DNA of 64,000 nt from Chrysemys picta bellii (Eukaryota > Chordata > Testudines > Emydidae). The position numbers were made by a program, and so were the translations under genes. Positions 32,431 through 39,174 of the stretch are shown here, in pieces. The notes under the pieces are model-generated. The model did not search any database, had not been told where the DNA came from, and was given only the letters and a program-made list of their open reading frames with translations. How positions within the stretch are numbered: position 1 is the stretch's first letter; each line of letters opens with the position of its first letter. Location: contig NC_088805.1 of NCBI RefSeq assembly GCF_011386835.1, positions 13,760,836-13,824,835 of the forward strand. Direction: 5' to 3'.

Positions 32431-32853
32431 AACACACTTCTAGGGAAAAGTAGAAATTAGGGGAAATACAACCTAGATGGAGGGAAATACAGCCAGGGAA
32501 ATACTACCTAGCTGGAGCTACTATAAAGTAGGTGCATAACTAGTTGGAAAATCATTCCCAGAGAGTAGTTATCAGTGGTTCACAGTCAAGCTGGAAGGGC
32601 ATATCAAGTGGGGCCCCTGCAGGGATCAGTTCTGGGTCTTGTTCTGTTCAATTTCATCAGTGATTTAGATAATGGCATAGAGAGTACAGTACAGTTATAA
32701 AGTTTGCGGATGATACCAAGCTGGGAAGGTTGCAAGTGCTTTGGAAGACAGGATTAAAATTCAAAGTTATCTGGACAAACTGGAGAAATGGTCTGAAGTA
32801 AACAGGATGAAATTCAATAAGGGCAAATGCAAAGTACTCCACTTAGGAAGGAA

Positions 32854-33062
32854 AAGACGGTTACTCACCGTTGTAACTGTTGTTCTTCGAGATGTGTTGC
32901 TCATATCCATTCCATTAGGGTGTGTGCGCGCCGCGTGCACGATCGTCGGAAGATTTTTACCCTAGCAACACCGGCGGGTCGGCTGTGGAGCCCCCTAGAG
33001 TGGCGCCTTCATGGCGCTGAATATATACCCCAGCCGACCCGGCGCCCCCTCAGTTCCTTCTT
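32854..33062. repeat. DIRS left terminal repeat (3' end of the element)
   Basis: 32899-33062 is an exact reverse complement of 38923-39086. The outer 45 bases (32854-32898), beginning AAGACGGTTACTCACC, are not matched at the right end; such unequal ends are usual in DIRS1-like elements. They are matched instead by the internal complementary region. Confidence 0.95.
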
Positions 33063-33098
33063 GCCGGCTACTCCGACAGTGGGGACGGGGGGCGGGTT

Positions 33099-33197
33099 TG
33101 GAATGGATATGAGCAACACATCTCGAAGAACAACAGTTACAACGGTGAGTAACCGTCTTTTCTTCTTCGAGTGCTTGCTCATATCCATTCCATTAGG
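33099..33197. repeat. DIRS internal complementary region
   Basis: 33099-33159 is the exact reverse complement of the left end 32854-32914. 33160-33197 is the exact reverse complement of the right end 39066-39103. Together they spell the junction expected if the two ends were joined in a circle. In DIRS1 this region is proposed to template completion and circularisation of the cDNA. Confidence 0.95.
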
Positions 33198-33214
33198 TGA
33201 CTCCCAAGCCCAAC

Positions 33215-34354
33215 TTAGGTGGTGGGGTCGGAGTGAGACATTGCTGTGTGCAAAACCGCTGATCCGAAGGCAGCATCGTCCCTGGACTGCTGCACTAGTG
33301 CATAGTGAGCTGTAAACGTGTGGACTGATGACCAAACCGCCGCTCTACAGATGTCCTGGATCGGAACTTGCGCCAGGAAAGCAGTCGAGGAAGCTTGGGC
33401 CCTCGTGGAGTGAGCGGTGAGGTGCGGTGCTGAGACACCTGCCAGGTCATAGCAAGTCCGGATGCAAGACGTAATCCAGGAGGATAGGCGTTGTGAGGAG
33501 ACCGGTGAGCCTTTCATTCGGTCGGCCACTGCAACGAAGAGTTGCGTCGTCTTTCTAAAGTGCCTTGTGCGGTAAATATAGAAGGCCAGGGCCCTGCGTA
33601 CGTCCAGAGAATGCAAACGTTGATCCTGGCGAGTAGCATGTGGTTTAGGATGAAAGACCGGGAGAAATATATCCTGGTTGATATGAAAAGGAGAAACCAC
33701 CTTAGGGAGAAAGGCAGGATGTGGACGAAGCTGCACTTTATCCTTGTGGAAAACCGTGTAAGGGGGCTCGGATGTAAGCGCCCTGAGTTCAGAAACGCGC
33801 CTTGCTGAGGTGATGGCTACGAGGAAGGCTGTCTTCCAGGATAGGTACAGAAGTGAACAGGTGGCCAGTGGCTCGAATGGAGGACCTGTGAGCTTGGAGA
33901 GAACCAGGTTGAGGTCCCACGTCTGAACGGGCTGACGTTGTTGTGGGTACGTCCGGTCTAAGCCCTTGAGGAATCTAACGACCATCGGGTTAGAGAATAC
34001 CGAGGATGCGAGTTCCCCTGGGTGAAAGGCCGATATAGCGGCCAGGTGAACTCTAATTGAAGATATCGCCAACCCTTGCTGTTTTAGGGAGAGGAGATAT
34101 TCCAAAATGAGAGGAATAGGTGCCTGCAACGGGGACGTGGCTCGTTGTTCGCACCAACAGGAGAACCGCTTCCACTTGGCCAAGTATGTGGTCCGTGTTG
34201 AGGGCTTCCTACTGCTCAGCAGAATCTGTTGGACAGAGTGCGAGCACTGCTGCTCTGCCTGGGTGAACCATGGAGCAGCCACGCCGTGAGGTGGAGTGAT
34301 TGCAGGTCGGGGTGACGCAGGCGGCCGTGGTCCTGAGAGATGAGGTCCGGGCAT
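33215..34354 (-). CDS. DIRS tyrosine recombinase
   Basis: The proposed start, ATG at 34354, gives 379 residues. It overlaps the end of the RT frame by about 139 bases, as is usual in DIRS elements. An N-terminal core-binding region spans about residues 30-140. The catalytic domain keeps the expected residues: Arg in TSARRVSEL (185/186), His-x-x-Arg in AHSTR (315 and 318), Trp341 and Tyr351 in TAHYALV. The enzyme would join the circular cDNA intermediate to the target by strand exchange, explaining the missing target duplication. The open frame continues far upstream of 34354, but that part is mostly a shadow of the RT frame. The true start could differ by tens of residues. The frame appears intact. 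Confidence 0.9.
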   Translation of the reverse strand: MPGPHLSGPRPPASPRPAITPPHGVAAPWFTQAEQQCSHSVQQILLSSRKPSTRTTYLAKWKRFSCWCEQRATSPLQAPIPLILEYLLSLKQQGLAISSIRVHLAAISAFHPGELASSVFSNPMVVRFLKGLDRTYPQQRQPVQTWDLNLVLSKLTGPPFEPLATCSLLYLSWKTAFLVAITSARRVSELRALTSEPPYTVFHKDKVQLRPHPAFLPKVVSPFHINQDIFLPVFHPKPHATRQDQRLHSLDVRRALAFYIYRTRHFRKTTQLFVAVADRMKGSPVSSQRLSSWITSCIRTCYDLAGVSAPHLTAHSTRAQASSTAFLAQVPIQDICRAAVWSSVHTFTAHYALVQQSRDDAAFGSAVLHTAMSHSDPTT

Positions 34355-36190
34355 AATGGAAGCGGGATCGGTGTCTGAACCGAGAGCTCCAACAGCGTGG
34401 TGTACCAATGTTGTCTCGGCCACGCTGGGGCGATCAGAATCACCTGTGCCTGGTCTCTGCGCAATTTGAGCAGTACCTTGTGGACCAGAGGAAACGGAGG
34501 GAAGGCATAAAACAGGTGGTCCTTCCAGGGAAGGAGAAACGCGTCCGAGAGGGAGCCCGGAGCTCGACCTTGCAGGGAGCAGAACACGTGGCACTTCCTG
34601 TTGTCTCGAGATGCAAACAGGTCTATCTGGGGAAACCCCCACTTCTGGAAAACGGAATGTATGATGTCCGGACGGATAGACCACTCGTGTGTTTGAAAAG
34701 ACCTGCTGAGTCGGTCCGCCAGAGTGTTCTGGACTCCAGGGAGGAACGATGCCGTGAGATGGATTGAGTGGGCGATGCAGAAGTCCCACAGGCGAATGGC
34801 CTCTTGGCATAGCATTGACGAACGTGCTCCTCCTTGCTTGTTGATGTAAAACATGGCGGTGGTGTTGTCGATGAGAACTAACACACAGCGGCCACGTAGG
34901 AGATTGAGAAATGCCTGGCACGCCAGGCGCACCGCCATCAGTTCCCGAACATTGATGTGCAGGGCTATCTGGGGTGCAGTCCACAGGCCCTGGGTATGGT
35001 GTTCGTTGAGATGGGCGCCCCAACCCAGGGATGAAGCGTCTGTGACCAGGTGCAGAGAGGGTTGTGGGGCGTGAAACGGCATCCCCTCGCAAACCACCTT
35101 GTGGTCTAGCCACCATGTGAGGGAGGTCAGGACCGAGTTCGGGACCGTGACCACCATGTTCAGGCTGTCCCGATGTGGGCGGTATCTTGATGACACCCAG
35201 GTCTGGAGTGGGCGAAGCCGAAGTCTGGCATGCCTGGTTACGTACGTGCAGGAAGCCATGTGACCCAGCAGGGTGAGGCACGACCTCACCGTGGTAGTTG
35301 GGAAGGCCTTGAGTCCTTGAATGAGGCTCGTGATGGTGCAAAAGCGATTGTCTGGCAGGATGGCTTGTGCACGTCTGGAGTCTAGAACCGCGCCGATGAA
35401 TTCTATTCTCTGGGTAGGTTCTAGAGTGGATTTGTCCTTGTTGAGTAGGATACCCAACTTGTTGAATGTGTGCACTATTATGTGGACGTGATCTCGAACT
35501 TGTTCTTTGGTGCGACCGCGTACCAGCCAGTCGTCTAGGTACGGGAACACCTGTATCCCTTGCCGACGAAGGTACGCTGCCACGACAGCCATACATTTCG
35601 TGAACACCCTTGGGGCCGAGGATAGGCCGAAGGGAAGGACTGCAAATTGGTAGTGCACCTTGCTTACCACGAACCGCAGGAAGCGTCTGTGAGGCGGGTA
35701 AATTGCTATGTGAAAGTATGCATCTTTCATGTCGAGGGCGGCGAACCAGTCTCCAGGATCGAGGGAAGGGATAATGGCCCCCAAAGAGACCATGCGGAAC
35801 TTCAACTTTACTACGAATTTGTTGAGTCCGCGCAAGTCCAAGATGGGTCGCAGACCTCCTTTGGACTTGGGAATGAGGAAGTAACGGGAATAGAATCCCC
35901 TGCCCCTTAACTCCACTGGAACCTCCTCTATGGCCCCCATAGCAAGGAGCGTGGAAACTTCCTGTATAAGAAGTTGCTCGTGAGAAGGGTCCCTGAAGAG
36001 GGACGGGGAAGGGGGGGGAGGAGGGGGGGATTGAAGAAAACTGGATAGCATATCCCCTGTCCACCGTGCGAAGGACCCAACGGTCCGAAGTTATAAGGGA
36101 CCAGGTCCGGTGGAAATGGGAAAGGCGATCCCGAAAGGATGGGGCTGGATCCTGTGGGATGACTGGGGCGCCGTCCTCGACCGCACCTTC
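34216..36190 (-). pseudogene. DIRS reverse transcriptase / RNase H (one frameshift near the N-terminus)
   Basis: From the ATG at 36051 the frame runs 611 residues. RT motifs: ALDMKDAY (catalytic Asp107), LPFGLSSAP (139-147) and YLDD (171-174). RNase H motifs: TDASS (Asp338), VREL (Glu370), IDNTTA (Asp395) and ADRLS (Asp446). Residues 470-550 (IDLFAS, AFPPFP, IAPAWPR) correspond to the methyltransferase-like region described in DIRS1-group elements. The conserved N-terminal part (FRDRL, TSDRWVL, GYAI) lies in another frame at about 36190-36030. The two join across the G-rich tract 36004-36030, so a single-base slip there has probably broken the gene. The core catalytic region itself is uninterrupted. 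Confidence 0.88.
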
Positions 36191-38707
36191 AAAAGTTCTG
36201 CCTGGGGCCTGAAGGTGGTCTAGGTGGCCCCTGGTTCTGACCAGGTTGAGGGCCGGTCCACCTTCTTCTACCACCTCGCCCTCGCCTCCGGGTCGAGTCC
36301 TGTCTCTGACGAGGCGGGGGGGGGTAGAAGCGCTGAGGCTGCGGTCTAAATGGCCTGCGCTGAGGGTCCACAACATGCATCCCCAAGGACCGCATGATCG
36401 TCCTGGAGTCCTTGAGGCTCTGCAGGCGAGAGTCCGTCTTTTCGGAAAACAGCCCTTGTCCTTTGAAGGGCAGATCCTGCAGGGTTTGCTGCAGTTCCTG
36501 AGGCAGACCCGAAACCTGGAGCCAGGAGATCCTCCGCATAGCGATACCTGAGGCCAGGGTTCTCGCAGCAGAGTCCGCTATGTCTAAGGAGGCCTGTAAG
36601 GAGGTCCGAGCCACCTTCTTACCCTCCTCCACCAGGGCTCCAAACTCCTCCCTGGACTCTTGGGGAACCAACTCCTTGAACTTCCCCATAGAGTTCCAGG
36701 AGTTAAAGCTATAGCGGCTCAAGAGCGCCTGTTGATTAGCCGCTCTAAGTTGCAACCCTCCGGCTGAGTAAACTTTACGGCCGAATAAATCGAGGCGCTT
36801 AGCCTCCTTCGATTTGGGCGCTGCGGCCTGCTGACCGTGGCGCTCCCTTGCGTTCACTGATGCCACCACCAGTGAACACGGCTGGGGGTGGGTATACAAG
36901 TACCCGTAGTCTTTAGACGGAACAAAGTATTTCCTTTCCACCCCTCTCGCTGTGGGTGGGATAGAGGCAGGAGTCTGCCATATCGTAGATACATTGGCTT
37001 GTATCGTGCGGATCAGGGGTAACGCCACCCTCGATGGGGCATCCGCTCCGAGGATATTCACGATGGGGTCGTGCACCTCCACTATCTCCTCCGCCTGCAG
37101 GTCCATATTACGGGCCATCCGACGCAGAAGATCTTGGTGAGCCCGAAGATCTATTGGAGGTGGACCTGTGCACGATGTGCCCGCCACTGCCTCATCCGGA
37201 GAGGAAGAGGAAGATGCCTCCGGTGGGACAGGATCCAAGGGAGGGTCCTGGGCTCCCTGCTCCTGGGCCGGAGCATCACCTGCGCTTGAGTCCAGGGCGT
37301 CAGGTGGTGCGGACACGGAAGCCTCCATGCCCCCTGGCGGAGGCCGAGAGATGGTGGACTCCGGGGCCCTTCTAACAGAGTAACCGGAGCGAGAGGTCGA
37401 AGCAACTGGAGCCCCTTGCACCTGATGGTACGCCCACGGGGTCCAAAACGACCAGTGAGAAGGGCCATGAGATGGTCCTCTGTTATGTTCTGCCAATGGC
37501 CCAAGCCCTGTTCCTCGGCTTGCCCTTGAGGGGGGTATGCCGATCTCGAGAGGTCCTCCGAGGAGCGAGACCCCGATCTCGATGGCCATGGCGGTGCCGA
37601 GAGCGTCGAGACGATTCCCGTGGGCTGCGGTGCCGCACGGTGCCGGTCTGGAGATGATCTATCTCCACGCGGTGCCGGCGATCGGTGCCGGGACCGCGAC
37701 CGGTGCCGATGACCTCGTCGGTACCGGGAGTCGGATCTGGACCTCGACGAGGACCTGGAGTATGCCCGGTACCGGGAGCGGCCTCTCGACGTCGAGCGGC
37801 GACCGTAGCGGTGCCGAGAACTACGTCTCGACGTTGATCGGTGCCGACGATCATAGCGGTGCCGAGACGTAGAGCGGTGCCGCGAAGAAGATCTTGGCCG
37901 CGAGTACGACCGGTGCCGAGGTGATATTCGGTGCCGGGACTGCGAGCGGCGTGGGGACCTGCTTCGGGACCTGGATCGGTGCCGAGGTTCCAGCCCTTGC
38001 GATGGAGGGCGCATCAAGGCAGGTTTCCCCCTCGACTGGACCGGGCGAGGCAACGGTGCCGTCGGTGCCGGTGGTTGAGGCGGTGCCGGCTCCGTGAGAG
38101 CTATTAAGTCTCTCGCCGCCGCGAAGGTCTCTGGCGTCGACGGGAGGCACTGTATCACCGCCTGCCTCGGTGGAGACGCCGTCTGCACCGGACTCAACGG
38201 CCTCGGCGCCGGAGTCGACGGTGCTGGAGGCACCTGTTTCCGGTGCTCCACCGGCGTACGCGGCTCTACCCCCGGCACTGGGGGAGCCAGCGTCTTCGGC
38301 ACGGAGGTCCCCGTCTTATGGGCTTTCTTATGCCCTGGGGATAATGACCGGCGCCGAGGCACTTGCTGTGCTTTCGGTGCCGACGAGGTCCGGTGCCGGG
38401 AAGGCTCATCTGACGCCACTCGCGTGGTCGTCATGGCCGGTGCCGCCGGGGCACTGCGCACCGAGGCGCTAGGTGCCGGGGCCTGACTTGTAGATGGAGC
38501 GTCCGGACTAAGTGCCGCCTCCATCAGGAGTTGCCGGAGCCGAAAGTCCCGCTCCTTCTTGGTCCTTGGTCTGAAGGCCTTACAGATCTTGCACTTATCT
38601 GTTTGATGGGACTCTCCCAGGCACTTCAGACAGGAATCGTGCGGGTCGCTCGTGGGCATAGGCTTAGCGCAGGAGGCGCACAGCTTGAAGCCGGGAGCGT
38701 TGGGCAT
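36189..38707 (-). pseudogene. DIRS Gag, approximately 839 residues, one frameshift
   Basis: Start ATG at 38707 (MPNAPGFKLC); the same start is kept in the older copy at 49933. The N-terminus has three Cys-x2-Cys pairs (CASC, CLKC, CKIC), a likely zinc-binding module. Residues 70-240 are Pro/Ala/Ser-rich. A long RS/RH-rich tract follows (about 37560-37980). After WQNITEDHLMALL the frame must shift by one base near 37438-37444 to continue into AYHQVQGAPV. The C-terminal half (about 36189-37440) is ordered, with FVPSKDYGYLY and YSFNSW, and ends in an Arg/Pro-rich tail. Gag would package the RNA. The break is a single-base indel or, less likely, programmed. Confidence 0.88.
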
Positions 38708-38922
38708 GAGCCCGGCCCCGCGGCCGGGGGAGAAAGGGCGAGACGACCCCCTTAATCCCCTGAACTATTATAACAACTAGACAACTATTAAAACTATTGA
38801 ACTATTTAACTATAAACACTAGGACTATAACTATAACTATAACTGCGAATAACGAACTAAGCTAGGGAGAGTGGAGAACAGCTAAGCAGCGCTCCACAGT
38901 TCCAACGACCGTCAGGGGCGGT
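38708..38922 (-). promoter_or_regulatory. DIRS 5' leader
   Basis: Lies between the right terminal repeat and gag. It contains an iterated ACTATA/AACTAT tract at 38762-38850. No open frame. Confidence 0.6.
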
Positions 38923-39103
38923 AAGAAGGAACTGAGGGGGCGCCGGGTCGGCTGGGGTATATATTCAGCGCCATGAAGGCGCCACTCTAGGGGGCTCCAC
39001 AGCCGACCCGCCGGTGTTGCTAGGGTAAAAATCTTCCGACGATCGTGCACGCGGCGCGCACACACCCTAATGGAATGGATATGAGCAAGCACTCGAAGAA
39101 GAA
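38923..39103 (-). repeat. DIRS right terminal repeat (5' end of the element, probable promoter)
   Basis: 38923-39086 is identical to the inverted left repeat. A TATATATTC/GAATATATA box at about 38960 could act as a TATA element for leftward transcription. The outermost bases end GCACTCGAAGAAGAA. Confidence 0.85.
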
Positions 39104-39174
39104 CAATCAGTTGCATACATACAAAATGGGAAATGACTGCCTAAAATGGAGTACTGCAGAAAGAGATCCAGGGG

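Follow-up and report, generated by a model that had tools for sequence, protein, structure and literature searches.

The replication and integration of DIRS elements are understood largely through a model of DIRS-1 from Dictyostelium, for which circles have been verified and the replication model is not fully proven (PMC5633606). DIRS1-like elements are listed in Gopherus agassizii, and AcDIRS1 and AcDIRS2 are described from Anolis (PMC3266345). For the painted turtle Chrysemys, a member of Emydidae, a Repbase DIRS entry is in use (PMC9210276), 792 regions have been studied in work that also derives LAP2alpha from DIRS gag (PMC4495291), and DIRS ranks third among the repeats, after CR1 and hAT, in a study that also plots repeats in the gonadal transcriptome (PMC5438563). 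DIRS elements are thus already known in turtles, Chrysemys included, and are not notable there in themselves; the original prediction for the present locus had called recent activity in a turtle lineage notable. In this study, we analyzed 64,000 nucleotides of Chrysemys picta bellii (assembly GCF_011386835.1, contig NC_088805.1, positions 13,760,836 to 13,824,835; hereafter the window). Positions 32854-39103 of the window hold, on the minus strand, a full-length DIRS1-like tyrosine-recombinase retrotransposon. The kind of element is ordinary and its identification very well supported; the copies closest to it in sequence form an unusually clean, young group.

The element has inverted terminal repeats (ITRs), an internal complementary region (ICR), a right extension, a tyrosine recombinase and a reverse transcriptase (RT), without target-site duplication, which bears out its earlier recognition as a DIRS-type element. 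Ngaro and PAT elements, which have split direct repeats, are ruled out because the ends are inverted repeats. Crypton, defined by a recombinase without a reverse transcriptase, is ruled out by the presence of the RT. The structural features are as follows (terms for the extension as in PMC3266345).

32854-39103, coding strand minus: whole DIRS1-like element, 6250 bp, delimited by its ends, the ICR and 20 whole near-identical copies
32851-32853, no strand: GAA at the left junction, on the flank side; usually NAA in other copies (flanks of 21 copies and site statistics)
32854-32896, minus strand: coding-right extension with divergent end, 43 nt, outside the left arm
32897-33062, minus strand: coding-right ITR arm, 166 nt, identical to the other arm
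33099-33197, minus strand: ICR, the reverse complement of the two joined ends
38923-39088, minus strand: coding-left ITR arm, 166 nt, identical to the other arm
39101-39103, no strand: GAA at the right junction, within the element; shared by the other right ends apart from L053, L093 and L102

The ICR is the reverse complement of 39066-39103 (38 bases) joined to 32854-32914 (61 bases) at 99 of 99 bases, exactly as had been claimed. This agreement between the ends and the ICR is far beyond chance: exact matches of 64 and 38 nt lie in the required order, and the pattern is repeated in 38 of 39 copies. The argument that the ICR marks the edges holds, with the qualification that each edge is fixed only to within the 3-base GAA overlap common to both junctions. 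The ITR arms are identical, as predicted, at a length of 166 rather than 164 nt; lengthening them to 170 nt (32897-33066 and 38919-39088) brings in one mismatch. The right extension finds a full match only in the ICR, and the inner portion of the extension shows partial similarity to the opposite end.

It is very probable that the element is a retrotransposon replicating through RNA and a circle, with a circle junction copied from the ICR and recombinase-driven insertion at AA. Read from the footprints left in the copies, the family likely multiplied via RNA and a DNA circle; the end-to-end junction of the circle is predicted to be copied from the ICR, and the encoded recombinase would insert the circle through strand exchange, with an AA dinucleotide as the target. 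The sampled insertions would then date to about the last million years.

By published description rather than by sequence, AcDIRS1 and AcDIRS2 (Table 3 of PMC3266345) are alike to this element in size (5938 and 5997 vs 6250 bp), in having a right extension only, in the make-up of the ICR (40-58 and 39-60 vs 38 and 61) and in their long conserved ITR (140 and 136 vs 166). In both, as in the turtle element, the start trinucleotide matches the junction and the end trinucleotide differs (CTT/CAT and TTT/TGT in Anolis); here, the junction is TTC on the coding strand (GAA). Dictyostelium DIRS-1 likewise has ITRs, an ICR and a recombinase, and a circle is reported for it (PMC5633606). The Chrysemys DIRS of Repbase and of the 792 regions belongs to the same species and superfamily and has a gag related to LAP2alpha; this family is likened by description only, and its age, empty sites and target motif are not treated in the available text of PMC9210276 and PMC4495291. 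A survey of the open literature by title and opening of the abstract, a weak test, found no paper treating the age or target motif of the turtle family, and the literature search found neither the AA-based target motif nor the two-arm ITR variation in print.

A 601-base query from the element returned 1413 first-look candidates, and all 40 that were scored, including the window copy, were 99-100% identical. Of the 39 other stretches (99% over 601 bp), 20 were fetched whole, 18 were read by their ends and one (C2612) was left out. A second search gave 20 further copies, of which the ends of 19 were read (C2722 was left out). The 20 whole copies measure 6151-6250 bp and, in the main aligned pieces, match the window copy at 98.6-99.7% identity, so the absence of close copies that could have refuted the original prediction does not apply. 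Pairwise substitution among the 21 copies averages 0.70% (0.08% to 1.19%). Their tree has three well-supported groups and some zero-length tips, and 10 of 18 inner branches are poorly supported. The close copies might instead stem from a few insertions, multiplied by segmental duplication or as assembly artefacts, as the small contigs L033 and L034 with the same flanks and the odd flank of L046 could suggest. However, the 55 left flanks that were kept are all different, and the copies are spread over many long contigs, making this explanation extremely improbable.

The element sits inside another repeat, which we take to be of the CR1 type.

32607-32853, plus strand: interrupted repeat, left flank
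39104-39174, plus strand: the same repeat resuming, right flank (for both, the joined flanks run unbroken in other copies of the repeat)

When the window flanks were joined, three fetched copies of the repeat read through the junction without a break, and the junction (query base 146) was spanned by every one of the 40 matches scored among 3362 candidates. The predicted break and resumption of the repeat at the element's edges is thereby upheld, and the empty sites that had been proposed as a check exist. The joined flanks of 19 further copies were searched together, and the 40 matches listed came from two targets (L011 and L020). Among these matches, the L011 target, a repeat, is empty at at least 31 places (90 of 90 bases), and the L020 target has one empty site at 100% and four matches at 98-99%. 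In both, the joined flanks match with AA counted once; the AA of L011 sits within a run of A. The empty sites of all three insertions (window, L011 and L020) show neither loss nor duplication of the target.

Before the target counts, L034 (flanks as L033) and L035 and L046 (odd structure) were dropped; the right-flank counts additionally exclude L074 and L083, in which the right end was either not located or not intact. Among the 55 left flanks, no two are alike in the last 20 bases, and AA precedes the element in 54, the remaining one having AT; the preceding base is G in 27, and GAA occurs in 26. Of the 53 right flanks, 33 have C at +1 (p 2.7e-10), 35 have T at +8 and 35 at +9 (p 2.3e-9 for either position), and 45 have a pyrimidine at +11. 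The T at +8 and +9 and the pyrimidine at +11 recur in the element's own left end, so that a half-site of this kind is likely what the recombinase reads. The stated rule for DIRS elements is integration at a 3-base sequence identical to the junction (PMC3266345), and the motif found here would relax that rule. DIRS-1 is reported to target its own copies without apparent sequence preference (PMC5633606), whereas the turtle family has different flanks and an AA-based motif. Integration by end joining or target-primed reverse transcription, with AA incidental, would fit the truncated copy L035/L053 with its aberrant end. It is scarcely credible for the group, given that the ends are exact in 38 of 39 copies, that the targets are intact and that the sequence preference is sharp as far as +9.

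The age of the insertions was judged from several measures at an assumed substitution rate of 1e-9 per site per year; the published reptile mean is 1.17e-8 per generation (PMC9995274). Sequences duplicated within a copy differ at 1 of 18,734 sites over 38 copies (L034 and L046 included), a divergence of 5.3e-5 (interval 1.4e-6 to 3.0e-4), or about 53 thousand years, which arm-to-arm gene conversion would pull down. The closest pair of copies differs by 5 substitutions in 6,248 bases, or about 0.4 My. The 21 copies have 162 singletons, with a mean of about 8 per copy. These measures disagree, likely because 21 copies stand against over a thousand first-look candidates, so that many seemingly private variants are not private. 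The predicted lack of CpG decay is confirmed: the observed/expected ratio is 0.82 within the element, compared with 0.26 and 0.28 for the remainder of the window. Taken together, the sampled copies make a strong case for the predicted recency; for the window copy the case is looser. The identity of the arms, offered earlier as a sign of youth, says little: both arms are apparently made from one template each cycle. We rejected that argument since length variants sit in both arms, which would thus be alike at birth at any age.

An old family, with its copies and both ITR arms kept alike by gene conversion rather than recent transposition, could explain why the ITR/ICR zone has so few substitutions compared with the interior (1 of 241 variable columns) and why 26 of the 77 variants common to several copies are at CpG. 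It would not explain why the left flanks all differ, why exact empty copies of one target exist, why the tree has zero-length tips, why the CpG ratio is so high or why only 31 of 162 singletons are at CpG, where about 61% would be expected with a tenfold CpG rate. We consider it highly unlikely. The single substitution column in the ITR/ICR zone, though the zone makes up 8.5% of the length, would follow if altered ends fail to transpose; length variants do occur there.

The length variants themselves bear on how the ends are made. The ends and the ICR agree exactly in 38 of the 39 copies read, and the two ITR arms are identical within the copy in 37 of 38. Ten of the 38 have a non-modal ITR form (four with one 166-nt form, four with a 164-nt form, one with 167 nt and one with another 166-nt form), and one of the four 164-nt copies has a substitution in one arm only. 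Several of these variants were likely inherited together, leaving about four independent changes. A length change in both arms fits the prediction of one template for both arms; arm-to-arm conversion would also give it.

The coding features, all on the minus strand, are as follows.

37151-38764, minus strand: N-terminal gag open frame of 537 aa, in the window copy not joined to the C-terminal frame
36189-37658, minus strand: C-terminal gag open frame, 489 aa, with a weak LAP2alpha match
34216-36090, minus strand: RT frame, 624 aa (PF00078, E 1.2e-21), with weak RNase H and Dam-type methyltransferase matches
33215-34255, minus strand: tyrosine recombinase, 346 aa within an open frame that extends to 36577

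The LAP2alpha family match of the C-terminal gag frame is weak (E 0.0015, below cut-off) and agrees with the published domestication of LAP2alpha from DIRS gag (PMC4495291). The RT frame is longer than the 624 aa of the window copy in 17 of 21 copies. In the recombinase alignment, the R, K, H, R, W and Y columns are conserved, and 20 of 34 aligned members match PF00589 at E <= 0.1; a Pfam scan of the long recombinase frame matched no family. The matches from a sequence search of the PDB were weak ones to the Cre family (E 0.016 and above), and the fold was therefore predicted instead. The predicted fold of the recombinase resembles that of Cre; the solved structures of Cre and the Tn1549 integrase share it at about 15% identity. 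Tn1549 recombines via a circle junction, as is proposed for the turtle element. Both are phage or bacterial enzymes working without reverse transcription, unlike the turtle element.

Among the 21 copies, amino-acid-changing variants number 25 of 65 in the recombinase (45.0 expected), 30 of 65 in the RT (44.7 expected) and 16 of 45 in the C-terminal gag (31.5 expected). This deficit indicates that some of the proteins were under selection while the 21 copies arose, and the purifying selection in three of the four coding stretches tested indicates that the family was very likely active recently. The recombinase frame is open across much of the RT region (34300-36000) in most of the 21 copies. 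We rejected the whole long frame as coding because the RT overlap is unconstrained (51 of 65 changing variants, 45.8 expected); the overlap is seemingly not used in that frame.

A family recently acquired by the turtle lineage through horizontal transfer and then expanded was also considered. Among the best 120 of 1683 relatives, the sole RT relative above 90% identity is from Chrysemys itself (95%), and the top-ranked recombinase relative is 76% identical, as such a transfer might give. Against it, relatives occur in several other turtles at 51-83% with varying coverage, as long vertical descent would give, and patchy annotation of such genes weakens any absence elsewhere. We consider horizontal transfer unlikely. 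Separately, one scan of viral contigs with the RT frame found no relative.

Several observations weigh against recent, recombinase-driven transposition by this family. In the window copy, gag is split and the RT frame is shortened; this copy may have moved with proteins of other copies, or changed during or after insertion. It also has 10 substitutions absent from the 20 other whole copies, allowing an age of up to about 1.6 My at the assumed rate. Its recombinase matches PF00589 below the curated cut-off (E 0.0027), the RNase H (PF17917, E 0.0052) and methyltransferase (PF05869, E 0.0084) matches are both weaker than the curated Pfam cut-offs, and the N-terminal gag lacks constraint (26 of 39 variants changing, 26.4 expected, in the 21 copies). 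The 3-base identity rule is fully kept in only 26 of 55 sites (GAA), and two bases of it in 54 of 55 (NAA). The CpG enrichment of the common variants (26 of 77, against 13.8% of sites) is what chromosomal decay would give. Copies were picked by likeness to the window copy and are likely the youngest part of the family, which makes the whole family look younger than it is. The copy L035/L053 is truncated and bears an end of the wrong type, and the last three bases of the L102 right end deviate. All of this comes from a single assembly and bears on recent rather than present-day activity.

A family of dozens of near-identical vertebrate copies with exact empty sites and readable ITR variants makes the DIRS model countable: which target bases the recombinase demands, whether one template serves both arms and whether the junction is always rebuilt exactly. 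We propose tentatively, as a reading slightly more likely to fail than to hold, that the family continues to transpose in present-day painted turtles, with insertions that differ between individuals; that the recombinase reads an asymmetric half-site like the element's end (AA core, C at +1, TT at +8/+9 and a pyrimidine at +11) rather than a 3-base match; and that replication by circle and template has left its trace in the genome as the two-arm ITR variants. Painted turtle populations are one place to look for live insertions.

Three sets of copies stand out. In L053 (with L035 and L065), the coding-left end bears the terminus of the other end (GAA, then AAGACGG), and the opposite side is truncated at element position 1327. 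L033 and L034 are small contigs with one and the same insertion and identical adjoining flanks, a duplicate or an alternative haplotype. In L046 and L064, the left flank is DIRS gag sequence and the right flank resembles that of L033, pointing to a nested insertion, a rearrangement or an assembly error.
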